Assembly: GCA_002067705.1 (NCBI GenBank)
Contig: MVRL01000154.1
Location: 1 to 42,462 of the forward strand
Source of the DNA: Methanosaeta sp. PtaU1.Bin112
Lineage (GTDB): Archaea > Halobacteriota > Methanosarcinia > Methanotrichales > Methanotrichaceae
Direction: 5' to 3'
Length of the DNA: 42,462 nt
In this document: positions 15,029-42,462 of the stretch, piece by piece
How positions within the stretch are numbered: position 1 is the first letter of the stretch
How the letters are laid out: each line of letters opens with the position of its first letter
Notes under the pieces: generated by a model
Told to the model about the DNA's origin: nothing
Seen by the model: the letters and a program-made list of their open reading frames with translations, nothing else
Databases searched by the model: none
Translations under genes and position numbers: made by a program

Positions 15029-17665
15029 TCAGATGCGGAAATCCTTATCGAATAGTTGAAGCTGGCCTGGCAGGCGGGACTGGCCGGGCTTGGTCTCTTC
15101 AGGGCCCTTTTCCGGGCCTGCGCCCTCTTTCGAGCCAGGGCCTTCTTTCGCGCCCGTGCCATCAACATTTCCACTCCCGTCGGTCTTGATCAGCCACAGG
15201 TCCATGCCGCCGGCTCCATAGGATGCCGTCCGTCCCGTCACAATATAGCCGCCATCAGCTGTCTGCTGAACCGATGTGCCAAAGTCGCCCTCCCTGCCGC
15301 CAAAGGTCCGGCTCCAGATCTCATTTCCTTCTGCATCGGTCTTGAAAAGCCACAGATCCATCCCGTCTTCCCCGCTTGAAGAGGTATGGCCGGCTATGAT
15401 ATATCCGCCATCCGCGGTCGGCTGCACTGCGGTGCCATAATCATCGCCCTGGCCGCCATAAGTCCTGCTCCAGATCACATCTCCAGCAGAATCGGTCTTG
15501 ATTAGCCACAGATCCATCCCACCCGCACCTTCTGAGGAGGTGGAGCCTTCTATGAGATAGCCGCCATCAGAGGTCAGCAGAACTCTGCTGTTGGCGTCAA
15601 AAATTGCACTATCAACTGCAGATCCTCCGAGGGTCTTTTCCCACAGTTTGCCGCCCTGAGCATCGGTCTTGATCAGCAGGATGCTCCCTTTTGATGAATC
15701 CCCGGCAAGGATGTATCCGCCTTCGCCAGTCTCCTGGATGGACGATCCCGTGGAAATCCCCCCGACATCCTCATTGAGATCCATTGTCCTCTCCCATTCC
15801 TTGTCTCCCAGGCCATCGGTCTTGACCAGCCAGATGGTGCTGGGACCCATCGAGCCCGTCGCACCGGTGGCGATATATCCTCCGTCCGCAGTCTGCTGAA
15901 CTGAGAAGCCACCGTCATCCAACGACCCCCCGAAGGTTTTATCCCACTCTTCTTTTCCCTGCGCATCGGTCTTGATCAGCCAGAGATCCTTTCCCCCTGA
16001 ACCAAAGGATGGTGTGATGCCGGCGATGACATAACCGCCATCATCTGTCTTCTGGAGGGATGTGGCAAATTCATCCCCGCCGCCTCCAAAGGCCCGGCTC
16101 CAGATCTCCTCGCCTGATGAGTCGGTCTTGATCAGCCAGATATCCATTCCACCGACACCATAAGATGATGTGTGGCCAGTTACGACGTATCCCCCATCGG
16201 TGCTCACCTGGACGGCAGAGCCGATATCATCTTTTGCTCCGCCGAAGGTCTTCATCCAGGATCCGGCAGCAGGCTTTTCTGCTGCTGCGGCTACTGCGGG
16301 AATCTTTTCCGACGCATTTGTCTTGAATGTCTCCCGCCTGCTATCATCACTTTCATTTGGCCCGGCATGCATTCCATCTCTAACCCGAACCTCTATCTGA
16401 AACTCGCCTTCCGAGGTGTTCCAGGGCCACTGGTTGCTGAGCTGCCAATTGGTTGTGGCGATATTGTTCAAAAAGAACCTGTAAAAAATCAGATCGCCAT
16501 CCGGATCTGTTGCATTAGCGGTCCACAATACGACTGAGCCTGCTTGCTGCGGGCTGGTCTTGTCTGAGATCAGGCTGACTATGATTGGTGGAGCATTCTC
16601 AGGAGGATTGGTCACAGACAGATTAGTCTCAGGCAGAGCCTTTGCTGGAGAGGTGTAAGCACCAGAGACCATGCCACTCATGCATCCTGGTGCATCGATA
16701 GTGACCAGGACGGTCCGTCTCTTGGCGGCGGTCAGGTCGGGTGATGTGTACTCGATAACATACGTTCCTGTAAGAATTCCCTGGATTTGCCTCAGAATCT
16801 CTGTGAAATCCGCCTTATTTATGTTGATCCACAGACCTGCTGATTCATTTGCCAGCTGTCTCATATCCGCATACTTTGCCAGATCCGAACGGGGCACATT
16901 GGGATCGACAATTGCACTGCGGAAGTCCGGAGATACGGCTATCAGCATGGCTCCGGCTCTCAGCATATCCATTTTAACGTCATCCATCGTATAAGCGGAT
17001 TTGGACATTCCATCGCCTTTCTGCTGGGATGGTTCATCAGTTGCCACAATGATGATCTTCTGAGCATTTTGTCTGAATCCGAATGACAGCGCCCGTTCTA
17101 TCCCGTCGAGCGAATTTTCCGGCAGATCGGAACTGCCGCCTGATGTAGTGAGTTTGCCTACGGTTTTTCTAAATGAATCGGCATCATTGGTCCAATTGGC
17201 CTGAGTTATTGCAGCTGTGCCATTGAATGTGACCAGAGAGTATCTGGCATCCATCTTGCTTGCATTGATCTTTTCGGTCAGGTCACGAATCTTTGATTTT
17301 AGTGCATTTATCTCGCGGTCCATGCTGCTCGTTTCATCGAAGACGATCGCCAGATCAAGCTCCTGTCCCGTTGCATTGCCAGTGAAATGGAAATTGCCGA
17401 TATCAGTATCGATTGTGTCTTCCTTAACTCTGAAGTCATCCTTCTTGAGATCTCCGTATTCTGTGCAGATTTTATCGATAAATATATTGACACCTATTTT
17501 TGGGAAAGCAGCTGTATCGATTCCGACAATTTTGATTCCATTTGATGCGAAATCAGATGGTTGATCTTTCGCCTTCGCTGCGGTCATAACAAATGGATTG
17601 ATGATCGCGGATGCTATTAAAAGATACATTATAAATCTAACCGTATATCTCCTCGGAATCGACAT
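15029..17665 (-). CDS. Large secreted protein: VWA domain, immunoglobulin-like segment and seven-repeat beta-propeller
   Basis: This 878-residue extracellular protein has a signal peptide (about 1-32), a von Willebrand A domain (about 100-310) with a MIDAS-like DETSS at 110-114, and an Ig-like segment (about 345-440). Seven repeats of about 50 residues follow (about 465-830), with consensus DGGYIxxGxTSSxGxGGMDLWLIKTDxxGxxxWxRTFGG. Seven such units would form a closed propeller. The tail is rich in Gly, Lys, Glu and Pro and may be a flexible or wall-associated linker. Adhesion or cell-surface protein interaction is the likely role. The open frame reaches TTG/ATG positions up to 17689, but ATG 17665 has a GATAGGA site and begins the signal peptide. 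Repeats 3 and 4 lack part of the consensus. Confidence 0.85.
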   Translation of the reverse strand: MSIPRRYTVRFIMYLLIASAIINPFVMTAAKAKDQPSDFASNGIKIVGIDTAAFPKIGVNIFIDKICTEYGDLKKDDFRVKEDTIDTDIGNFHFTGNATGQELDLAIVFDETSSMDREINALKSKIRDLTEKINASKMDARYSLVTFNGTAAITQANWTNDADSFRKTVGKLTTSGGSSDLPENSLDGIERALSFGFRQNAQKIIIVATDEPSQQKGDGMSKSAYTMDDVKMDMLRAGAMLIAVSPDFRSAIVDPNVPRSDLAKYADMRQLANESAGLWININKADFTEILRQIQGILTGTYVIEYTSPDLTAAKRRTVLVTIDAPGCMSGMVSGAYTSPAKALPETNLSVTNPPENAPPIIVSLISDKTSPQQAGSVVLWTANATDPDGDLIFYRFFLNNIATTNWQLSNQWPWNTSEGEFQIEVRVRDGMHAGPNESDDSRRETFKTNASEKIPAVAAAAEKPAAGSWMKTFGGAKDDIGSAVQVSTDGGYVVTGHTSSYGVGGMDIWLIKTDSSGEEIWSRAFGGGGDEFATSLQKTDDGGYVIAGITPSFGSGGKDLWLIKTDAQGKEEWDKTFGGSLDDGGFSVQQTADGGYIATGATGSMGPSTIWLVKTDGLGDKEWERTMDLNEDVGGISTGSSIQETGEGGYILAGDSSKGSILLIKTDAQGGKLWEKTLGGSAVDSAIFDANSRVLLTSDGGYLIEGSTSSEGAGGMDLWLIKTDSAGDVIWSRTYGGQGDDYGTAVQPTADGGYIIAGHTSSSGEDGMDLWLFKTDAEGNEIWSRTFGGREGDFGTSVQQTADGGYIVTGRTASYGAGGMDLWLIKTDGSGNVDGTGAKEGPGSKEGAGPEKGPEETKPGQSRLPGQLQLFDKDFRI

Positions 17666-17734
17666 CAATCCTATCTGCAACAATGCCAATAGATTAAAGG
17701 TTTTGCATTATCTCAAGGCTGCCTTTGGCGCCGC

Positions 17735-31745: not shown

Positions 31746-32873
31746 ATGAGAATCAACAAATGGTTATTACAATCGGCGCTGGCACTGTGTCTTTCGCTGC
31801 TCGCAATCAGCACTGCACTGGCATCGGACAGTGCGGATTCAGATTATCCCAAGAAGATCGTAGATAATGCAGATAGAGAGATCACCATCCATAGTCCAGT
31901 GCAGAGGATAATAGCAAACAATGGAGATGCAGTCGAGGCCATAATCATGCTCGGCGAAGGCGACAAGATTGTGGCCGTATCGGATACGGTAAAACAAAAA
32001 TCAAGCTACTATTTCCCTATGCTTAAAAAAGTGCCATCGGTGGGAACATTCAATAAGCTTGACTATGAGATGATCGGAGCCATCGCCAAGGGAGGCAATG
32101 ATACAATTGCTCCGGATATTATCTTCATAGGCTACAGCTACCCGGGAAAAGCCTATGGAATTGAAGCCCATGCCAAGGCGCTTGCTCCGTTCGAGAACAT
32201 AACCTGCATTGGCCTGGATTTCTTCTATCCCGAAAACATGACAACCGATATGGAAAAGCTGGGAGTTATCCTGAACAGGGAGGCAGAAGCTAGAGAATAT
32301 ATCAACTGGTACAATGAGAAAGCCGCCGACATAAAGGAAGCAGTGAAAGATACTTCGATGCCCGCAACATACGTAGAATGGACATCAAAGGGCGACGATC
32401 TGAGCGGAATGGGGCCAACTTCAGGAGCTGGCCAAATGGTGAAATCTGCTAACGCATACAATATATTTAGCGGTCTCACAGACGGATATCCGAAGATCAA
32501 CTGGGAGTACATCATCTCGAAGAAGCCCGATATCATAATTAAGCGGCAGTCAACGGCATCGGATGCCAAAGCATTGGGCTGGGAAGCTCCTCCCTCTGCG
32601 GAAGCAATCAAGCTTGAGAGTGTCGTCCAAGAGATCATGGGCCGGCCTGCTGCGAATACCGTGCCCGCAGTGAAGAATGGTAAGGTCTATGTCTTCAACT
32701 GGGACTTCATGGCAGGTCCAGACCAGATAGTAGGACTCACTTACCTGGCCAAGGTTATCCATCCGGAAGCAAAGCTTGACCCCGATTCCGTTTACAAGGA
32801 GTATCTGGAAAAGATCGGTCTGGAATATCCAGAAGGAAGGATATTCGTTTACCCTGTTTCCGAAACAAAATGA
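31746..32873 (+). CDS. ABC-type metal-chelate substrate-binding protein (PF01497), first of five
   Basis: This 375-residue exported protein has a signal peptide (MRINKWLLQSALALCLSLLAISTALA) and a FepB/BtuF-like two-lobed fold. The first lobe opens with the family entry motif REITIHSPVQRIIANNGDAVEAIIMLGEGDKIVAVSD, split at 31861-31980, and the protein closes with KNGKVYVFNWDF and IHPEAKLDPDSVYKEYLEKIG. Relatives bind Fe-siderophores, heme, cobalamin or other chelates. No permease or ATPase is nearby. It lies next to the nif-like operon on the opposite strand, separated by a terminator. Its mature form lacks the dockerin module found in three paralogues to the right. Confidence 0.88.
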   Translation: MRINKWLLQSALALCLSLLAISTALASDSADSDYPKKIVDNADREITIHSPVQRIIANNGDAVEAIIMLGEGDKIVAVSDTVKQKSSYYFPMLKKVPSVGTFNKLDYEMIGAIAKGGNDTIAPDIIFIGYSYPGKAYGIEAHAKALAPFENITCIGLDFFYPENMTTDMEKLGVILNREAEAREYINWYNEKAADIKEAVKDTSMPATYVEWTSKGDDLSGMGPTSGAGQMVKSANAYNIFSGLTDGYPKINWEYIISKKPDIIIKRQSTASDAKALGWEAPPSAEAIKLESVVQEIMGRPAANTVPAVKNGKVYVFNWDFMAGPDQIVGLTYLAKVIHPEAKLDPDSVYKEYLEKIGLEYPEGRIFVYPVSETK

Positions 32874-32915
32874 AAGACCTTGAAAGACCTGAGCTGTGGA
32901 ATAATTTATTCATTC

Positions 32916-32947
32916 TGCGGGCGATGTCGCCCGCAATCGAAATTTTT
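32916..32947 (+). terminator. Strong hairpin terminator between the binding-protein gene and the NifH-like gene
   Basis: A 20-base perfect palindrome (TGCGGGCGA and TCGCCCGCA, 32916-32935) is followed by a T-run at 32943-32948. It lies 43 bp after the binding-protein stop and would end that transcript. On the other strand it lies beyond the NifH-like stop and could act there too, with an A/T tail. Confidence 0.6.
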
Positions 32948-32998
32948 TAAATCATATGGGAGCCCAGATCCCATCATAACTGCATCCGGCATCACCGG

Positions 32999-33898
32999 CT
33001 ATTCATGCAATCGCGATCCATTTTTTGCTTTTTTTCTGTTCTCCTCTCTGATCTTCTGTGCCATTATGGCCAGATTCTCTCTTGAGAGTGGCTTTGGAAC
33101 TGCTGTTGATCTATTCTCAAGAATCGACCGGGCGAGAATCCTGAATCGGTCTGCTGCCGGAGAATCTGGGGCATGCTCTATCACGGTCTGGCCGTAAAGC
33201 TCGCTCTCCTGGATCATAGGATCGCTTGGTATCGTTCCTATTACCTTTGATCCGATTTTAGAGGCGAACTCCTCAACGAGACCCAGATCATCCAGAGACC
33301 CGCGAACATTGTAAATAATGCCGCCCAGAGCTGATCCGCCTCTGCCTGCGTAGCGCTGTATCCCCTTGCATATATTATTGGCTGCGTAGATGGCCAGATA
33401 ATCGGCGGATGTCACAACGTAAACATCATCCGCGAGCCCTTGGCGCAATGGCATGCCAAAGCCGCCGCAGACGACATCTCCCAGCACATCATAGATAACT
33501 ACATCAAGGCCGCTCTTGTAGACGCCCAGACGATCGAGCAGCTCTACTGCAACTTTTATTCCCCGTCCAGCGCAGCCCACGGCAGGCTCCGGCCCTCCCG
33601 CCTCAACGCATAAGGCTCCCTGAAAACCGGTGAAGACGACCTCGTTCAGATCTATGCTCTTGCCCCTGCCCATCTCAGTCAGTTCGAGCTTGTCACCTCC
33701 TTTTTCTCTCATTACATCCAGTATCGTGGGAATCTCCTGATCGCCTCTCAGATTTCTGGTGCAATCCGCCTTGGGATCGCACCCCATCTGCATGACCTTC
33801 TTTCCCATCTCAGCCAGGGCGGCGGCAATATTTGAGGATACAGTGGATTTTCCAATGCCTCCTTTTCCATAAAACGCAATTTGTAAAGGCTCTTTCAT
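32999..33898 (-). CDS. NifH-like ATPase (nitrogenase-like iron protein)
   Basis: The 299-residue protein is a NifH/BchL/CfbC-class ATP-dependent reductase. P-loop GKGGIGKST at 11-19; the bridging [4Fe-4S] ligands are C109 ([13 protein letters not shown]) and C144 ([10 protein letters not shown]). The Walker A' region reads [10 protein letters not shown] instead of the usual KADSTR, a mark of divergent NifH relatives. It would donate electrons to the partner encoded upstream. ATG 33898 with AAGGT upstream is used; the open frame to 34090 only overlaps the K-like gene. It is the last gene of the operon, 16 bp behind the K-like gene. Not assigned nifH: the neighbours argue against dinitrogen fixation. 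Confidence 0.92.
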
Positions 33899-33914
33899 GC
33901 ATATACCTTCTTTT

Positions 33915-35180
33915 TCAGGCACATATCTCTTCCTTATTCCGATTAAGAATTGAGTTGATGATGCTCTCACTGATAGATGCAATGCCGGAAAATCCGGCGT
34001 AAGGCAGATTCGATAGCGATATCTGGTCCAGGACCGGATAGGAGAGCCGGACCAGAGATGCTGAAAGCTCAGAAGCGATCCTCTTTTCAAAGCTCGATCC
34101 GAAGATGAGGCTCACCCCGGCATCTTTCAGCGCGAGGTTCATATCATGGCGATCGGGCTCCACCATTAATTTTTCGTAGGGAGCGTCTCTTGCATCCACC
34201 ATATCCGAAGTCGAATAGTTGCAGGATGATATGGCCAGCAACTTCACATCCATCCCCAGCTCATCGCTGAGAAACTCGGCCAGATCAAAAGCCCTGCCGC
34301 TCTCACCTATCACCGCTACGGGCGTCGAGTAAATTCCCTGGAAGAACATATGCGCCCGCTCGACGATCTTTTTCGTCCGCTCCTTCTCCTTCTCCAGAAT
34401 CTGTGGATCTGCCTGCTTTCCCACCGCTTCGGCGATCATCTCAACGAATTGAATGCTCTTCTTCAAGCCATAGGGATAAGGCACAGCAATGTAGGGAATA
34501 TCGAACTTCTCTTGCATGGCCTTTGCGCACTCCTGGCCGTCACCGCCCAGCAGGACATTGAGCTCTGCTTGGGGCGCTTTTTGCATCTGTTCAAAAGATG
34601 AGCCGCTCAGGACGCAGTTGACGAACAGATCCTGATCCTGAAGCATTGTTTTCATCTCGAAAAGGTCGCCCTGGCTGCAGAAATCGTCTGCTTTGAAGCC
34701 CAGAAGGTTGATACCCTTTGAAGTCTCTCCTTTGCCTTTGCTCATTTGCAGAACAAGCCGGGAGAGGGCTTCTTCGTAGCCAAGCCATGCCGGACCCTCA
34801 GGCCCGCCGGCGTCCATTGCGATCAGCTTTGCCCTAATCTCGTCCTTCAAGAGCATTTGCAGTCCAACAACATCCTCGCCCATGATGGCAGGAGCACTGC
34901 AGTTCAGGACGGCAATCGCCTTAGGGCTGAAGGTCCGGTCGGCAAGGCGAATGGCCGAAGCCAGCCTCTCCTCGCCGCTATAGACCTCGTCGCTGGATTT
35001 AAGACCGCTGAATAGGACACGCACGCTGTTCTGCTCCGAACTCAGGGTTTGCAGGAGCAGCGCCCCGCAATGGCAGCCGTTTCTGCCGTGAATAATGGTC
35101 ATGCTGTCGCTGATGCCGTGAAAAGCCCTGAGGGCTCCTACCATCTTGCAATCATGCAATGGATCATATATTATGCTCAT
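33915..35180 (-). CDS. NifK-like nitrogenase component 1 subunit
   Basis: The 421-residue protein belongs to the oxidoreductase/nitrogenase component 1 family, closest in pattern to beta-type subunits. Candidate P-cluster-type ligands are C36/C38 ([16 protein letters not shown]) and C94 ([16 protein letters not shown]); the counterpart of NifK C95 appears missing. The second half has the repeated Rossmann-like lobes ([23 protein letters not shown] and [12 protein letters not shown]). It is about 100 residues shorter than NifK. ATG 35180 overlaps the D-like gene by 17 bp, with GGGGTGG as ribosome site. It should pair with the D-like subunit to hold a bridging cluster and a substrate or cofactor. 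Confidence 0.88.
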
Positions 35181-36696
35181 TGAGTGCCACCCCGGCCAGG
35201 CCATGAAAATGGTAATAAGAGCTCTGACTGAATTTTGTGGAGCGCAGATGATGAAATGACAGGGCAATCCTGGCCCAGTGAGGCGTGAGGTTGCTGATGC
35301 CTTCGTCAAACTCCATCAGGTCGAGCAGCGGCGAGCGCACTCTCACCTTTCCCATAGCTTCACGGAAGACCCGGCATAGCTTCAGAGAAGGCAGAAATCC
35401 CACGCTCATCTCCGTCTGGGCAAACTCGTTTACATCCACGGTTCTGAAACCCTCCCGATTGTAGAAGTGAGCGATCTTCACCGGAGCCACCACCAGGTCG
35501 ATCTTCAGCCTCTTAAATGACTCCAGCTCCTCTTTGGGTGTGGGGTTGATCAGAAGCTCAGGATGATAATCATAAATCTCAGCCAGGCCCAAATTGGCTC
35601 TCTCGATCTCCTGAATGGCCCTGTCCGTAACCCCGTGGGTGAGGGTCTGGGTTCGATAGATGAGTGCAGCCACATCCACGCCAATATCTTTTAGCAGATT
35701 CAGGCTGAAGCCCACAGGTACTGCCACCTTGAGGCCCTGCAGTTCCTTTGAAGCGGATTGCAGCTTCAATTGAACTGCAGTCCGGCTCTTTTCGATGACC
35801 GACTCGGCCTCTCCCTCCTTGCCCATGATTTGGGCGATCTCCTTCAGGACGCGGGTGCTTCCTGCCAGTCCATAAGGACTGATCGTCTCAGGGTCCTTCT
35901 TTTGATTATATCTGTGCCATCCGGTGATCTGGCAGTATTCCGTGCCCATCCTCTTTTTCATCAGTTCCGCCCAGGACATTCTATAGCCGATGACGTTCAG
36001 ATCGGCCTTTGCCAGGTCCAGCATGTCTTTGGTGGTGGTATGATCGAAGCAGACCTTGTTGATCTTGATATTCATCTGGGAGAGCAGGTCGGCCATCTCC
36101 AGGAGCTTATTGGCGTTTCTCTGGGTGGGAGAGTTGATCAGATTGACAGAGCCCTCGTTTCTTTCCACGTCCTCCCGGCAGATCAGCTGGTCGGCCATAG
36201 CATAGAGAGAGTCTTGAATTCCCACGGGCCTTGATTTTCCCACGGAGTCGCCCGTAGAATAGATCACTTCGCAGCCGACTTTCTCCTTTGCCTTTAAAAC
36301 GGCAGAGGGGATATCGTCTCCAATCAGATCTGTGGTGCATGTGGTGATTACTATGATCAATCCAGGCGAATATTTCTCATAGGACTCGACAATCGCCCGG
36401 CTGAGCTTCTCCTCCGCACCGTAGACCACATCCACATTGTTCAGGTTGGTGCACGGACTGTCATAGAAGGTGGATGAAAGGGTGAAGGGGTTAAGCTTTC
36501 GTTGAAAAGCACATCCTACCGGCCCGTGAATTAGCGGCAGAGCGTCTTTAATTGCATTGGCTACAACCATGGCTCCAGCGATTTTGCCGTGAATTGCGGC
36601 CAGATGATGCATGGGAATGGCGCTATATATGCTCCTCATGGTTTCAAGGATGGGAGCTTCGTCTCTGGTGATTAAATCCAGCTCATCAGGTTGCAT
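35164..36696 (-). CDS. NifD-like nitrogenase component 1 subunit lacking FeMo-cofactor ligands
   Basis: The 510-residue alpha-type subunit keeps three P-cluster-like cysteines: C62 (LIHGPVGCAFQRKL), C82 (SPCTNLNNVDVVYGAEEKL) and C120 (TTCTTDLIGDD). By hand alignment the position of the NifD FeMo-co Cys275 (HCYRS-type context) is G237 in VIGYRMSW, with C255 some way off, and no His442 counterpart is seen near HFYNREGFRTVDV. The enzyme therefore likely uses another metal site or a bound tetrapyrrole-like substrate, as in the BchNB and CfbD relatives. ATG 36696 has GAGG 9 bases upstream. The promoter region has an 11 bp direct repeat. The last 45 residues are a basic and aromatic extension that I do not recognise. 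Confidence 0.88.
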   Translation of the reverse strand: MQPDELDLITRDEAPILETMRSIYSAIPMHHLAAIHGKIAGAMVVANAIKDALPLIHGPVGCAFQRKLNPFTLSSTFYDSPCTNLNNVDVVYGAEEKLSRAIVESYEKYSPGLIIVITTCTTDLIGDDIPSAVLKAKEKVGCEVIYSTGDSVGKSRPVGIQDSLYAMADQLICREDVERNEGSVNLINSPTQRNANKLLEMADLLSQMNIKINKVCFDHTTTKDMLDLAKADLNVIGYRMSWAELMKKRMGTEYCQITGWHRYNQKKDPETISPYGLAGSTRVLKEIAQIMGKEGEAESVIEKSRTAVQLKLQSASKELQGLKVAVPVGFSLNLLKDIGVDVAALIYRTQTLTHGVTDRAIQEIERANLGLAEIYDYHPELLINPTPKEELESFKRLKIDLVVAPVKIAHFYNREGFRTVDVNEFAQTEMSVGFLPSLKLCRVFREAMGKVRVRSPLLDLMEFDEGISNLTPHWARIALSFHHLRSTKFSQSSYYHFHGLAGVALNEHNI

Positions 36697-36712
36697 TCTG
36701 TCATCCTCTGTC

Positions 36713-36765
36713 TGCTATATGAATACTTACGACTGCATATATCATATAATACTTTGCTATATGAA
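36713..36765 (-). promoter_or_regulatory. Promoter with 11 bp direct repeats ahead of the nif-like operon
   Basis: TGCTATATGAA occurs at 36713-36723 and 36755-36765 (plus-strand reading), 42 bp apart, or four helical turns. Between them is a TATA-like TTATATGATATATGC on the minus strand. Because the operon and the second binding-protein gene are divergent, this region can regulate both. The repeats are a candidate operator; AT-richness makes chance occurrence possible. Confidence 0.45.
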
Positions 36766-36905
36766 ATTAGCATTAAATATCTTTTGATCAAGCAACATAA
36801 TTCATAGTTAATGTTATATATTACATAAATTGTAACATTAATAGACCTATAATATTGGGACAATATGCAGGAACAGAGATCAACTCAACAAATTTAGGAG
36901 GAAAA

Positions 36906-38024
36906 ATGAATAAATGCAAACATCAGATAGCTCTGGCATTGATCTTGCTGGGTTTTTTTCTGGCGGTCAGCGTGAGCTGTGTCTGTTCTGAAGAATCGAA
37001 ATATCCACTAACTGTAACTGATTCGGCTGGAAGAGAGGTAAGCATTACCGAACCTGTGCAGAGGGTTATCGTCATTAACACCGATTCGGCAGAGGCCGTC
37101 ACTATTCTCGGTGCATCCGACCTGATCGTGGGTCTGGCAGAGGGAATAAAGGATGCCTACGAATTTCGTAATCTGAAGAATCGCACCTCAGTTGGAACCT
37201 GGACGGAAATAGACTATGAAAAGATCGGAGAGGTTGTCCATAATGGCAGCCAGAATATGAGCTCCGATGCCCTTGTCTTGTGCTTTGTCTATCCCGGAAA
37301 GCCAAATGGAGTGGAGGCGGTCTCAAACAACCTCGCCACGATCGGCGGCATTAATGTCCTTGGCCTTGACTTCTACAAGGAGGAGAACCTGAGCAGAGAG
37401 ATGAAGCTGCTGGGATCGGTTCTCGGAAGAGAAAAGGAAGCAGAGGAGGTAATGGACTGGCATGATAAGGGAGTAGCAGAGGCAGAATCGGCTGCATCCG
37501 GTCTGGACCGCCCCAAGGTCTTTGTGGAGGGAAGCTCAAAGGGTTTGGGCGAGATCACTACATTTGGAAAGCAATCTGGTTCTGCAATGCTCCTGCAGAA
37601 AGCAGGCGGCGACAATGTCATGCAGAAAGATGAAGCATACCCAAAGGTGGACTGGGAGTGGGTTGTATCCCAAAATCCGGATGTGATTATCAAGACGGAT
37701 TACCTCAAGTCATCCGACGGACTTCCGGGATGGAGCCTGTCATCTGCCGAGGATGTCAAAGCGCTGGAGGAGAAGAGAAATGATATTCTCACTCGCCCTG
37801 GAGCCCAGAATATCTCTGCGGTGAAGAACGATCGCGTCTACATCGTATCTGCTCAGACCCTCTTCGGCCTGGACAACGTTGCGGGCCTGCAGAGGCTGGC
37901 AAAGCTGCTTCATCCCCAGATAAGCCTCAATCCTGAAGAAGCATACGCGGAGTATCTGCATTTCATGGGACAGGAGGAGCAGAAGGACAGGATATTCGTC
38001 TATCCGGAGATCGCCAAAGCCTAG
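36906..38024 (+). CDS. ABC-type metal-chelate substrate-binding protein (PF01497), second of five
   Basis: The 372-residue exported binding protein starts MNKCKHQIALALILLGFFLAVSVSC, either a signal peptide or a lipoprotein signal. The first lobe opens with REVSITEPVQRVIVINTDSAEAVTILGASD and the C-terminus has NDRVYIVSAQTLFGLDNVAGLQRLAKLLHPQ. It is a close paralogue of the gene at 31746 and also lacks dockerin. ATG 36906 has a perfect AGGAGG at 36896-36901; the longer open frame from 36855 has no ribosome site. It is divergent from the nif-like operon, with only about 200 bp of shared regulatory DNA, and is 5 bp from the next dockerin-fused paralogue, so the two are cotranscribed. Confidence 0.88.
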   Translation: MNKCKHQIALALILLGFFLAVSVSCVCSEESKYPLTVTDSAGREVSITEPVQRVIVINTDSAEAVTILGASDLIVGLAEGIKDAYEFRNLKNRTSVGTWTEIDYEKIGEVVHNGSQNMSSDALVLCFVYPGKPNGVEAVSNNLATIGGINVLGLDFYKEENLSREMKLLGSVLGREKEAEEVMDWHDKGVAEAESAASGLDRPKVFVEGSSKGLGEITTFGKQSGSAMLLQKAGGDNVMQKDEAYPKVDWEWVVSQNPDVIIKTDYLKSSDGLPGWSLSSAEDVKALEEKRNDILTRPGAQNISAVKNDRVYIVSAQTLFGLDNVAGLQRLAKLLHPQISLNPEEAYAEYLHFMGQEEQKDRIFVYPEIAKA

Positions 38025-38029
38025 AGTTG

Positions 38030-39286
38030 ATGGAAATGATGAGAAAAACAACCATGCAATTGATTCTGATATGCGCCCTATCAGTTCTCACGACCGTATC
38101 TGCAACAGGATACACTTTGCAGATATTTGGCAATGCCAATTTGGATGATGCAATCGACGAGCTGGATATCGCATATGTAAGGGATGTGATCGCCGGAAAG
38201 AGCGCGTCCACGGATCTGTCTGACGCCAACCGAGACGGCATTGTCGACGATGAAGATATCAAGCAGATAGAGATGATAGTCAATTCAACTGAAGATCATC
38301 TGGACCTTAAAGCCTTTACCATTTATGATAAGGCCAAGATCGTCAAAGTTTCAATGCCAGTTGAAAAGATCATAATCCTCAACTTGGCCTGCGCCGAGGC
38401 AATCAGATGCATAAAGGCTGAAGATAAGGTTATCGCAATCGGCTCATCCACAGTGGAAGGCTCAAACAAGGATTTCTTCTCGGATTTGAGCGGTCTTCCC
38501 ACTGTGGGAAAATGGAGCGACCCGGATATCGAATCCATACTTCGCCTCCAGCCGAATCTCGTGATTGCTGACTTGAGGACACCTGATACCGAGAAATTGG
38601 AGGATAAGCTGCAAGGGTCAGGAATCAGTGTAATCCGCATGGGGTTTACTTATCCTGACTACTCCCAGGCGGAGATGATGGCTCTGGGCTATATTCTCGG
38701 CAAGAGGGATGAGGCAAAAGAGTATACGAATTTCGCAGGAGAGTACATTGATCTCATCGAGCAGCGAATATCATCGATTCCCGAGAAAGAAAAGCCGGTG
38801 GTTTATCCCATTTACTACACATCAGACAATCTGTGGAAGAGCGGCTCCAATGGATCAATTGTGGATATGCTTTGCGGACTTGCTGGAGGGTCTAACATAG
38901 TTCATAATCTGACGGGAGGAACCGGTGGCATGTATCCGACAGTGGACCCGGAGTGGGTGGTCAAAGAGAATCCCGAGATCATCTTTACATGGAGTTCACC
39001 AGGGGGGTATAGCGTAACGAATGATACTCAGATGAAGCAGCTATGGACAAGCATCGCAAAGGCCCCCGAGCTATCCCAGGTGGACGCTGCAAAAAATGAG
39101 CGGATATATCTCATGACCACAGAGATCACAAGCCGTCCGAGGTGGTTTGTTGGACTTTCTTATCTCGCGAAGTGGATGCATCCCGATCTCTTCAGGGATC
39201 TGGACCCCGAGGCAATACATAAAAATTATCTGGAGAAGTACCAGGGTGTGAAATATCAGGGATCATTCGTATATCCTGCCAATTGA
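38030..39286 (+). CDS. Dockerin-fused metal-chelate substrate-binding protein, third of five
   Basis: The 418-residue protein has a signal peptide, then a dockerin-like pair of calcium-binding loops (about 30-85: IFGNANLDDAIDELDIAYV and SDANRDGIVDDEDIKQI), then a PF01497 domain (about 95-418). The second loop is a good DxNxDGxxDxxD match; the first is degenerate (N for D). The C-terminus PRWFVGLSYLAKWMHPDLFRDLDPEAIH matches its minus-strand paralogues. Dockerins bind cohesins on scaffold proteins, so this receptor could be tethered to a surface complex; no cohesin is in the window. Starts at TTG 38027, ATG 38030, 38036 and 38039 are all possible, and 38030 was chosen. Confidence 0.87.
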   Translation: MEMMRKTTMQLILICALSVLTTVSATGYTLQIFGNANLDDAIDELDIAYVRDVIAGKSASTDLSDANRDGIVDDEDIKQIEMIVNSTEDHLDLKAFTIYDKAKIVKVSMPVEKIIILNLACAEAIRCIKAEDKVIAIGSSTVEGSNKDFFSDLSGLPTVGKWSDPDIESILRLQPNLVIADLRTPDTEKLEDKLQGSGISVIRMGFTYPDYSQAEMMALGYILGKRDEAKEYTNFAGEYIDLIEQRISSIPEKEKPVVYPIYYTSDNLWKSGSNGSIVDMLCGLAGGSNIVHNLTGGTGGMYPTVDPEWVVKENPEIIFTWSSPGGYSVTNDTQMKQLWTSIAKAPELSQVDAAKNERIYLMTTEITSRPRWFVGLSYLAKWMHPDLFRDLDPEAIHKNYLEKYQGVKYQGSFVYPAN

Positions 39287-39476
39287 ATTAGATAAATTTT
39301 TATATTTTTTAGACAGATCTCCATTGGCCTTCATTCCATTCGTGCAGTTCCGATAGATTAGAGAACTTCTAAGCTTCATGGAGCCAAAAAGAATATTACT
39401 CCCGCCATATTTATGAGGTTTCCAGACGATGGTCCTGGACGTTTATTTAAGAAAAAATAAAAAATTGCTCGTCTGA

Positions 39477-40709
39477 TTAAGAGGGATATGCGAATACGCC
39501 GCGGGAATTCAGGTCGTAATCAAAGTCCTGCATGTTCAGGTATTGCTGATGCAGCGCCTTTGGATCCAAATCCGGGAAGAGATCGGGATAGAACCATTTG
39601 GCCATGTAGGCGATAGTCACCGGGACAGCGGGGCTTGCTCCGAATTCATAGAGCAGCATGTACACCCGGTCGTCTTTGACTGCGGTGATATTGCTCCAGC
39701 CGGTTCTGTCTAGGATCTCTTTTCTTTTGGATGCAAATCCTGATGAGTCATCGGTTGCATAGCCGCATGCAATCTCCGATGGCGATGTGAGTCTCACAAT
39801 GACATCTGGGTTTTGTATCATCACCCACTCAGACTCAACTTCCGGATATGCTCCTTCCAGATCCGAGGCAAGGTTCACTCCTCCAGCCATGGTGCATGCC
39901 AGATCTCCGCCTTTGCCCTTGGTGTAGGTCTTGAGGTCTGCATATCCTTCCAGGTAGACCCTTGCTTTTTTGTCTGCAGGCAGCTTTGAGGTCTTTTCCT
40001 GCACCGCATCGGTGATGTTGTAGAAGAACTTCAGGTATCTGTCCGCATAATCAGTCTTGCCGAGGATGTATCCCAGCATCTTCATCTCCGCCGGCAGATC
40101 GTCTGCCCTGTAAAGATCAAGAGCTACAATAGGAATACCTGTGCCGTTGAGCTTTGGCTCCAGGTACTTTGGGGCAGCAGACTTGTAGCTTATGGCCAGA
40201 TCCGGCTGTAGGGTGAGGATCTTCTCAATGTCCGGCTCGCTCCATTTTCCAACATTTGGCATCTTGCTGAAATCAGGAAGGTAGGTGGCGTCATCCAGGG
40301 TGTCAACCGAGACGCCTACGACCTTATCAGTGGCATGCAAGACCCTGATGGCCTCAGCGGCATCGCCGGTAACGGCTACTATTCTCTTGATGGGCATCTT
40401 CAGGGTTACAGTCCTGCCGGCGGTGTCGATAAGGGTCAAGCACTCTTCATCGTTCTGGATGATCAGCCTTATCTGGTCAATATCCTTCTGGTCTACCGTT
40501 CCATCATAATTGGCATCGGAGAGATTGGTGGCTTCATTTGTCCCTTTGATCACGCTTTCAATGTAATCAATATCCTTCTCGTCTATGGTGTCATCCATAT
40601 TGGCATTGCCGAAGATGTTGAGACTGAAACTTGCGGCCGCCGCGGGAGTTGGGATGATCATTGCCAAAGATAAAAGGGACAACAGTATGCAGAGAATCGA
40701 TATTCTCAT
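39477..40709 (-). CDS. Dockerin-fused metal-chelate substrate-binding protein, fourth of five
   Basis: The 410-residue protein has a signal peptide (MRISILCILLSLLSLAMIIPTPAAA), a dockerin-like module (about 30-88: IFGNANMDDTIDEKDIDYI and SDANYDGTVDQKDIDQI), then PF01497 (about 92-410), opening with GRTVTLKMPIKRIVAVTGDAAEAIRVLHATD. The ATG directly follows the TAA of the fifth paralogue, with GGAGGGG inside that gene's end as ribosome site, so the two are translationally coupled. It is convergent with the third paralogue; the AT-rich 190 bp between them contains T-runs on both strands. The ligand is unknown. Confidence 0.9.
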   Translation of the reverse strand: MRISILCILLSLLSLAMIIPTPAAAASFSLNIFGNANMDDTIDEKDIDYIESVIKGTNEATNLSDANYDGTVDQKDIDQIRLIIQNDEECLTLIDTAGRTVTLKMPIKRIVAVTGDAAEAIRVLHATDKVVGVSVDTLDDATYLPDFSKMPNVGKWSEPDIEKILTLQPDLAISYKSAAPKYLEPKLNGTGIPIVALDLYRADDLPAEMKMLGYILGKTDYADRYLKFFYNITDAVQEKTSKLPADKKARVYLEGYADLKTYTKGKGGDLACTMAGGVNLASDLEGAYPEVESEWVMIQNPDVIVRLTSPSEIACGYATDDSSGFASKRKEILDRTGWSNITAVKDDRVYMLLYEFGASPAVPVTIAYMAKWFYPDLFPDLDPKALHQQYLNMQDFDYDLNSRGVFAYPS

Positions 40710-41954
40710 TTAGATCCCCTCCGGATAGACAAATACCCCCTGCTTGCTCAGATCATAATCCAGTCCCTGAAACTTAGTCAAGTACTCCTGATGTATAGCC
40801 TCCGGGTCCAGATCCTCGAAGAGATCGGGATGCAGCCACTTTGCCAGGTAAATTATGCTCAGGAAATACCTTCCTCCGAAGAAAACATCTGCTGACTGGA
40901 TGTAGACATTGCCGTTCTTGACCGCCGAGACATTGGACAGCTCCGAACGGCCCGTTACCTCATCTTGTTTCTCTTCGAATTTGGTGGTATTGTCCTTGGC
41001 CAGAGCGTAGCCGCCGATATTGCTGATCTTCCAGATGATGAACTGGGGATCTCTCTTGACCAGTGATTCTGGGTCAACAGTTGCATCTCCGGTCGTATCG
41101 GCAAAGATATTCTTTCCGCCGGCCATGACAGTTACATTATTTGATGAGGAGCCCACGCCGCCGGTCTGATAAAAGTCGCTTCGCCCTCCTTCATATACTC
41201 TCGGTTTCGCTTCATCTGGTATATCTTTGACCACATTCTCAATCTCATCTATCTTACCGTTATACCAGTCTGTGAACTCTATAGCCTCCTTTACCCGTCC
41301 CACAATATACCCCAGCTTCATGATGTCTTCTACATAGGTCTCCGGCTTGAAGCAGTCCAGACCGATCACAGAGATATCCGGATTGGCTTTCTTTAGAGTA
41401 TCATTTATTGTCTCATAGTCGCCGGTCCACTGGGTTCCGTAGTAGACCACCAGATCAGGATTCTGCGTCAGAATCTTCTCAAAATCAGGTGTCTTTCCAG
41501 ATCCAACGCTCACGACCTGCTGGAATTCAGGGAAGTAGGATTTGTCATTCAATGCAGAGTCGCTGACCGCTACGATTTCGTCTGAGGTTTTTATCGTTCT
41601 CAGAGCCTCAGCAGCATTGCGGTTGACCGGGATGATCCGTTTTACGGGCGTCTTGATCTCTACAACCTTGCCAGCGGAATCGAGAAGGACGAGCTTCTTC
41701 TCCACTCCCTGGATGATCTCTTCTACTGCAGATACATCCTGCTGGTCGATCTTGCCATCGTAATTGGCGTCAGCCAGCTCGGTCTCCTTGTCGGTTTTAT
41801 TTATTATTCCTTGCAGATAGGTTATATCATCTGCATCAATGGTATCGTCCATGTTGGCATTTCCGAATATGTCCAGTGTAAATGCCCCTGCCGAAGGCAA
41901 AATGCATAACAAGACTCCGGACAGGGCCAAAAGCATCAAAGCACATTTATTCAT
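40710..41954 (-). CDS. Dockerin-fused metal-chelate substrate-binding protein, fifth of five
   Basis: The 414-residue protein has a signal peptide (MNKCALMLLALSGVLLCILPSAGA), a dockerin-like module (about 25-85: IFGNANMDDTIDADDITYL and ADANYDGKIDQQDVSAV) and a PF01497 domain (about 90-414), with GKVVEIKTPVKRIIPVNRNAAEALRTIKTSD opening the first lobe. The mature N-termini of this and the fourth paralogue are nearly identical, indicating recent tandem duplication. GAGG lies about 10 bases before the ATG, with TATA-like AAATATTATTGG near 41980. It is the first gene of a two-gene unit and lies 248 bp from the transposase at the right edge. Confidence 0.9.
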   Translation of the reverse strand: MNKCALMLLALSGVLLCILPSAGAFTLDIFGNANMDDTIDADDITYLQGIINKTDKETELADANYDGKIDQQDVSAVEEIIQGVEKKLVLLDSAGKVVEIKTPVKRIIPVNRNAAEALRTIKTSDEIVAVSDSALNDKSYFPEFQQVVSVGSGKTPDFEKILTQNPDLVVYYGTQWTGDYETINDTLKKANPDISVIGLDCFKPETYVEDIMKLGYIVGRVKEAIEFTDWYNGKIDEIENVVKDIPDEAKPRVYEGGRSDFYQTGGVGSSSNNVTVMAGGKNIFADTTGDATVDPESLVKRDPQFIIWKISNIGGYALAKDNTTKFEEKQDEVTGRSELSNVSAVKNGNVYIQSADVFFGGRYFLSIIYLAKWLHPDLFEDLDPEAIHQEYLTKFQGLDYDLSKQGVFVYPEGI

Positions 41955-42202: not shown

Positions 42203-42462
42203 ATGAATATAGGGGATTTTGCAGCAGATTATCTTGTCGATAAGAACGAAACAATGAGAAACGTGACCGAATCGATATTGAATGAAGTTATGCAAATCGA
42301 GGCATCAAGGCAGATACAAGCCCAACCTTATGAGCGCAACGGCAATAGAAGAGCACACCGGAATGGAACTCGAAATCGAAGCCTAAAGACCATTCATGGA
42401 GAAGTAACGCTCAAAAAGCCCCAATTCCGGGAGTTTCCATTCAAGACCGGTGTTTTCGCTAG
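42203..42462 (+). mobile_element. 5' part of an IS256/Mutator-family transposase gene, cut by the window edge
   Basis: From ATG 42203 an open frame of 86 codons runs off the window. It reads MNIGDFAADYLVDKNETMRN at the start. The middle, YERNGNRRAHRNGTRNRSLKT followed by IHGEVTLKKPQFR, matches the IS256 N-terminal signature (YERxxxRxGYRNGYxxRxLxT, then VGxLxLxVPxxR). IS256 transposases carry a DDE catalytic triad further downstream, outside the window. GTAGGAGGG lies about 10 bases upstream as ribosome site. The intact frame suggests a functional or recently inserted copy. Confidence 0.8.

Follow-up and report, generated by a model that had tools for sequence, protein, structure and literature searches.

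Dark-operative protochlorophyllide oxidoreductase (DPOR, BchNBL), chlorophyllide a oxidoreductase (COR, BchXYZ) and the CfbC-CfbD system are the characterised members of the nitrogenase superfamily that work without a bound active-site cofactor, and they reduce tetrapyrroles. The group IV enzymes MarHDK and IsrHDK are further H-D-K operons from a formerly uncharacterised part of the superfamily (IsrHDK is compared here by its literature description only; PMC11423573). MarD carries an [Fe8S9C] cluster with Cys270 as cofactor ligand, along with six P-cluster cysteines (PMC12552129). Contig MVRL01000154.1 of Methanosaeta sp. PtaU1.Bin112, analysed over its whole length of 42,462 nucleotides (the window, contig C154 of the host genome), contains an operon of NifD-, NifK- and NifH-like genes, named D, K and H in this study, which is flanked by PF01497 substrate-binding receptors. 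At a probability of roughly one half, this operon encodes an ATP-driven reductase of a tetrapyrrole-type ring within a system for the uptake and processing of metal chelates; the enzyme probably reduces a heme- or chlorophyll-like ring molecule. No description of the combined locus was found in the open-access literature searched.

Membership in the nitrogenase superfamily was evident from the domains PF00148 (Oxidored_nitro E values of 5.8e-72 and 2.2e-53 for the D and K pair) and PF00142, from the component-1 fold, and from the Fe-protein P-loop and both cluster cysteines in H. All three genes are intact and under purifying selection, with dN/dS of about 0.06-0.10 against their counterparts in L036, a related Methanothrix metagenome-assembled genome (MAG). 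The best alpha-subunit score of D among the nif/vnf/anf models was 96 bits (cut-off 486) and the best beta-subunit score of K was 109 (cut-off 874), while H, at 395.5 bits, was 1 bit above the NCBIfam nifH cut-off (394.35). The CfbC and CfbD cut-offs were missed by H (342 bits vs 402) and D (49 vs 268), and a K subunit is present in addition. D and K also stayed far below the DPOR model cut-offs (K 114 bits vs 490) and were not monophyletic with the Bch subunits. The host, a Methanothrix sp. with a genome of 3.44 Mb (99% complete, 3.7% contamination), possesses six component-1 gene sets: nifDKEN with nifH on contig C89, cfbD on C163 with cfbC on C146, and four further D-K-H operons on C72, C88, C136 and in the window. 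Since nifHDKEN and cfbC/cfbD thus occupy separate loci of the same genome, the window operon is neither of them.

A profile of the window-type D was searched against 392 genomes of the phylum. Scores of at least 250 bits were confined to the host genome and the families f9 and f31, and all others were at most 160 bits; a partial match of 142 bits in the f9 genome G267 adjoins an H gene of the same clade and was counted into the group. The closest named matches were the two Methanothrix MAGs L036, with 81% identity across the whole D, and L037. Seven f9 genomes had a match over the cut-off. The five McrA sequences recovered from them (G086, G286, G159, G188 and G223) contain the motif CCX4CX5C, which we take to be a signature of ANME-1 (anaerobic methanotrophic archaea, group 1); none was recovered from the f9 genomes G277 and G121. 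Family f31 has two divergent McrA copies of alkanotroph-like appearance. Judging from McrA, f9 would be ANME-1-like and f31 alkanotroph-like, and both names are used in this sense.

Phylogenetic trees were calculated with the Bch proteins of Roseobacter litoralis, the Nif proteins of Rhizobium phaseoli and Nitratidesulfovibrio vulgaris, a Nostoc set and the host's own proteins as references, and with part of the MarD sequence, taken from a PDB alignment. Window D grouped with the ANME-1-like and alkanotroph-like genes (support 100/98), and in the combined D and K analysis both clades received a Shimodaira-Hasegawa-like approximate likelihood ratio (SH-aLRT) of 99. The D and K clade lies outside Nif, NifEN, Bch, Cfb and another archaeal nitrogenase-like group, and MarD also falls outside it. 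Window H joined the ANME-1-like H proteins weakly (81/61), and it has a 12-residue insert common to many H proteins of the ANME-1-like clade that does not occur in NifH, CfbC or Bch proteins. The exact placement of Bch and Cfb is unsure because of long branches; the position of the window proteins outside Bch and Cfb is supported, and the tree leaves their nearest sister open. On sequence grounds, D and K form an undescribed nitrogenase-like branch relative to the reference families Nif, NifEN, Mar, Bch and Cfb. The initial annotation had proposed an uncharacterised reductase, and the trees do not refute this: D and K do not fall inside the true nitrogenases or CfbCD.

The metal ligands were compared in alignment columns anchored on the NifD and NifK motifs. 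The equivalents of Cys275 and His442, which bind FeMo-type cofactors, were absent in window D and throughout the 27 aligned D proteins of the clade. The cofactor cysteine was retained in Nif proteins, in MarD and in the other archaeal nitrogenase-like group; BchN, BchY and CfbD likewise lack it. Window D has cysteines equivalent to C88 and C154, a glycine at C62 and an additional Cys82, and K has cysteines at C70, at C95 and one residue before C153. In the operon type named after host contig C88, the D protein has three cysteines and the K protein one, near the DPOR pattern. AlphaFold2 models of D and K (mean confidence, pLDDT, 75.5 and 76.3) adopted the component-1 fold, and Foldseek matched them to Nif, NifEN, Mar and Bch structures about equally.

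The neighbourhood of the operon is conserved as well. PF01497, FecCD or FepC genes were located within 10 kb of 12 of the 17 related loci (10 of 10 when only contigs or stretches of 10 kb or more are counted) and of 0 of 8 loci of a different archaeal nitrogenase-like group (Fisher P = 0.0012), counts that are incompletely independent because several loci share a genome. The relatives' genomes are drafts, and several loci lie on short contigs. These counts did not refute the initial annotation, which would have fallen had PF01497 genes never been neighbours in related genomes. In the f9 and f31 genomes, tandem D-K-H sets of C88 and window type occur with PF01497, FecCD, FepC and methyltransferase genes. 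A 35.7-kb ANME-1-like contig (G277:C67) has the gene order ChlID, Gate protein, CobN, two D-K-H sets, methyltransferase, FepC, FecCD, PF01497 receptors and again CobN, and contains ABC-2 genes too. In L036, the gene immediately upstream of D encodes CobN, and CbiK is encoded about 10 kb upstream. CobN/ChlH-type chelatases, ChlID and S-adenosylmethionine (SAM) methyltransferases recur near the operons of the clade; in the CobN/ChlH protein associated with the clade, encoded outside the window, PF02514 spans the whole protein (1247 bits, positions 2-1089 of 1090). A single open reading frame (ORF) of the ANME-1-like genome G159 (L081:5420-7213) fuses a NifH-type Fe protein (residues 8-286) to a SAM methyltransferase (residues 365-491). 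In the other archaeal nitrogenase-like group (L085, L086, L090-L094), which keeps the cofactor cysteine, no PF01497 gene was seen nearby and a small methyltransferase-like gene is often adjacent.

The same association was apparent within the host genome, where all four D-K-H operons other than Nif and Cfb directly adjoin a PF01497 gene (gaps of 22-204 bp); none was found near the nif and cfb genes in the loci read. Regions no more than 1 kb from a PF01497 gene make up about 4% of the genome, so adjacency in four out of four cases is improbable by chance (p^4 about 3e-6, only a rough bound because PF01497 genes cluster). The PF01497 family is greatly expanded in this genome, with 69 genes, more than 25 of them on contig C88; many of the 69 stand in long tandem rows and many have dockerin-like loops. 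CobN was matched six times, probably reflecting five genes since the matches on C72 and C184 resemble two halves of one, and the CobN genes adjoin PF01497 or D-K-H genes. A ChlI-ChlD fusion of 682 amino acids was found. The C72-type operons (L022 on C72, L023 on C136, and L037:9726-13011) adjoin receptors, with CobN beside them on C72 and C136, and at high score their D was detected only in the host genome, within a 295-genome sample, and in the MAG L037. The C72-type D was considered as a relative of window D and rejected, for it belongs to a second, separate nitrogenase-like clade.

The missing cofactor ligands, taken together with the CobN/ChlID and CbiK chelatases, the SAM methyltransferases and the PF01497/FecCD/FepC genes, point to a tetrapyrrole-type macrocycle as substrate. 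The reductase would be one part of a modular system and, as a two-component, ATP-dependent member of the nitrogenase superfamily, would have H feed low-potential electrons to D-K. D-K would hold an Fe-S cluster at the P-cluster site and no FeMo-type cofactor; the pocket left vacant, like that of BchNB, BchYZ and CfbD, would accommodate an organic macrocycle, most likely a tetrapyrrole, in which at least one ring bond would be reduced. The PF01497 receptors and FecCD/FepC would import metal chelates, the CobN/ChlID- and CbiK-type chelatases would insert or remove metal, and the SAM methyltransferases would decorate the ring. We infer the cluster type, the tetrapyrrole substrate and the direction of uptake or salvage. 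Salvage of an imported ring, release of its metal and synthesis of a new ring are all compatible with the gene set.

Among the described systems, BchNBL and BchXYZ share the H-D-K composition and the loss of the FeMo-cofactor cysteine, and bchF-N-B-H-L-M of Roseobacter litoralis matches the archaeal loci in the kinds of genes combined, since the reductase is encoded there together with the H subunit of a chelatase and a SAM methyltransferase. BchM was no clear homologue of the methyltransferases found here (17 bits), so that the parallel concerns gene kinds and not orthologous methyltransferases. The Bch proteins are separate in the trees, differ in their cysteine pattern and are encoded among photosynthesis genes, whereas receptor and transporter genes surround the archaeal operons. 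CfbC-CfbD is likewise an archaeal nitrogenase-like enzyme of methanogens without FeMo-cofactor ligands; however, CfbD forms a homodimer without K, the host cfb genes are on other contigs, and the trees revealed no affinity. In the HmuS/BtuS heme dechelatase systems of Bacteroidota we know of no nitrogenase-like reductase. These systems resemble the present loci in that uptake genes are tied to a CobN-family (de)chelatase (PMC12583661), but the archaeal chelatase tested scored higher with CobN (602 bits) than with HmuS (396 bits).

Several observations weigh against a tetrapyrrole reductase linked to uptake. The window itself encodes no domain specific to tetrapyrroles, and its genes yielded neither CobN nor a methyltransferase. 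PF01497 proteins also serve siderophores and other chelates, and CobN is only a homologue of chelatases. The window-type D-K retains five to six cysteines, more than DPOR, and its cluster type could therefore differ; the fold comparison gave no preference for BchNB over NifDK. In L037, PBP2-PBP4 are kept at 83-86% DNA identity and PBP2 at 87% amino acid identity, while D is reduced to residues 1-69 and 181-232 and a C72-type D-K-H operon stands beside the kept receptors. The persistence of the receptors next to an operon remnant indicates that the tie to these particular receptors is not obligatory. The proposal of the initial annotation, a reductase acting on or supplied by an imported chelate or tetrapyrrole, is partly supported and has gained on the side of the tetrapyrrole through the chelatases, the methyltransferases and the ligand loss; a tetrapyrrole substrate and its import are both putative, and these genes might instead serve biosynthesis.

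A purely biosynthetic enzyme for an archaeal tetrapyrrole cofactor, such as a modified F430, heme or corrinoid, with the adjacent receptors as metal suppliers, appears unlikely. The resemblance to bchN-B-H-L-M and the methyltransferases within the operons would suit it, as would the modified F430 used by ANME-1 (PMC9012536). Yet CfbC and CfbD for F430 synthesis are already encoded elsewhere in the genome, and sporadic occurrence in Methanothrix, the many receptors and the loss in a close strain are unlike an essential cofactor. The PF01497/FecCD/FepC adjacency could also belong to a reductase of a non-tetrapyrrole, siderophore-like chelate, in which electrons passed to an imported complex of Fe(III) or Co(III) would release the metal. 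Methanosarcina barkeri has a PF01497-like receptor and CobN-like proteins that react to the iron source (PMC10846266). This explanation is unlikely in our view, as the recurrent CobN/ChlID chelatases and the SAM methyltransferases, including the fusion protein, indicate a macrocycle. Moreover, to our knowledge no nitrogenase-like enzyme reduces a siderophore.

A C-S lyase of the Mar/Isr type, that is, an enzyme resembling methylthio-alkane or isethionate reductase, is highly improbable despite the similarity of D to MarD (102 bits): the cofactor cysteine Cys270 of MarD (PMC12552129) is missing across the whole clade, MarD branches outside it, and no NifB/MarB-like radical SAM gene was noticed among the adjacent genes read. 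The probability of a true or alternative nitrogenase is close to nil, since the 1-bit excess of H is opposed by the absent FeMo-cofactor ligands, the scores of D and K far under the nif/vnf/anf cut-offs and the host's own nifHDKEN. Identities as true nitrogenase, CfbCD or Mar/Isr were rejected on ligands, scores and trees.

The components of the locus are compiled in Table 1, with all positions in forward-strand numbering of the window. ORFs, protein families (Pfam) and spacing agreed with the initial description of an H-K-D operon among five PF01497 proteins, one of them divergent: PBP1 flanks the H end and PBP2-PBP5 the D end (E values 1e-22 to 1e-27 for the five), the D and K genes share 17 bp, a gap of 16 bp separates K from H, and D and PBP2 are separated by about 160-210 bp. 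Relatives of PBP1 adjoin other nitrogenase-like operons in L023 and L036. The right end of the window is the contig end within a transposase gene, so that genes further right are not visible. Pfam scans of the larger ORFs in the window, which were not exhaustive, detected no nifB, nifV, vnf/anf or cfbA/B/E. An Rfam scan of the window gave no match, and a promoter and terminator scan, with a bacterial model for an archaeal host, gave no more matches than shuffled sequences beyond noise. A large VWA-domain protein of 886 amino acids is encoded at 15032-17689.

Table 1 Features of the D-K-H locus and its surroundings in the window
Feature	Position	Strand	Description
PBP1	31746..32873	+	PF01497 substrate-binding protein (E 8e-27); N-terminal signal, no dockerin loops; convergent with H
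H	32999..33898	-	NifH-like Fe protein, 299 aa; PF00142/Fer4_NifH (E 4.5e-102)
K	33915..35180	-	Component-1 beta-like subunit, 421 aa; PF00148
D	35164..36696	-	Component-1 alpha-like subunit, 510 aa; PF00148
D-PBP2 intergenic region	36697..36905	none	AT-rich, divergent; probable shared promoter region; PBP2 ATG at 36906
PBP2	36855..38024	+	PF01497 (E 2.7e-23); no dockerin loops
PBP3	38027..39286	+	Dockerin-like loops and PF01497
PBP4	39477..40709	-	Dockerin-like loops and PF01497
PBP5	40710..41954	-	Dockerin-like loops and PF01497
Mutator-family transposase	42203-42460		Cut by contig end

Three of the five receptors (PBP3-PBP5) carry two dockerin-like calcium loops after the signal peptide, with Pfam Dockerin_1 matches below threshold only. 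Cohesin PF00963 had no match in the host genome. Cohesin proteins were seen in ANME-1-like clusters (L080:2142-5264 and L130:7754-10668), one with a PGF-CTERM anchor, adjoining receptors and nitrogenase-like genes. The arrangement suggests that the dockerin receptors may be anchored at the cell surface via cohesins. Pairs of ABC-type ATPase and membrane genes were observed beside ChlID, a CobN half and nitrogenase-like operons (L087:6426-8026, L089:1512-3325 and L068:2624-4407); they are possible exporters, the membrane gene of L068 being ABC-2 by Pfam and those of L087 and L089 by appearance only. As a rather speculative and doubtful extension, a BchNBL-type reductase, a BchH/ChlID-type chelatase and a SAM methyltransferase might make a new reduced tetrapyrrole in non-phototrophic methane-cycling archaea, a tetrapyrrole metallophore that would be exported by ABC-2 transporters and re-imported as metal complex by dockerin-anchored PF01497 receptors.

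Archaeal CobN/ChlH homologues are abundant and their roles are stated as unclear (PMC12583661); for the group IV nitrogenase homologues reported from ANME-1, a role in F430 synthesis has been assigned (PMC9012536). The locus family presented here brings the two together with uptake receptors and methyltransferases as a conserved set, so that a single enzyme would suffice to test the question. Should the D-K-H reductase act on a tetrapyrrole, tetrapyrrole reduction within the nitrogenase superfamily would reach beyond photosynthesis and F430.

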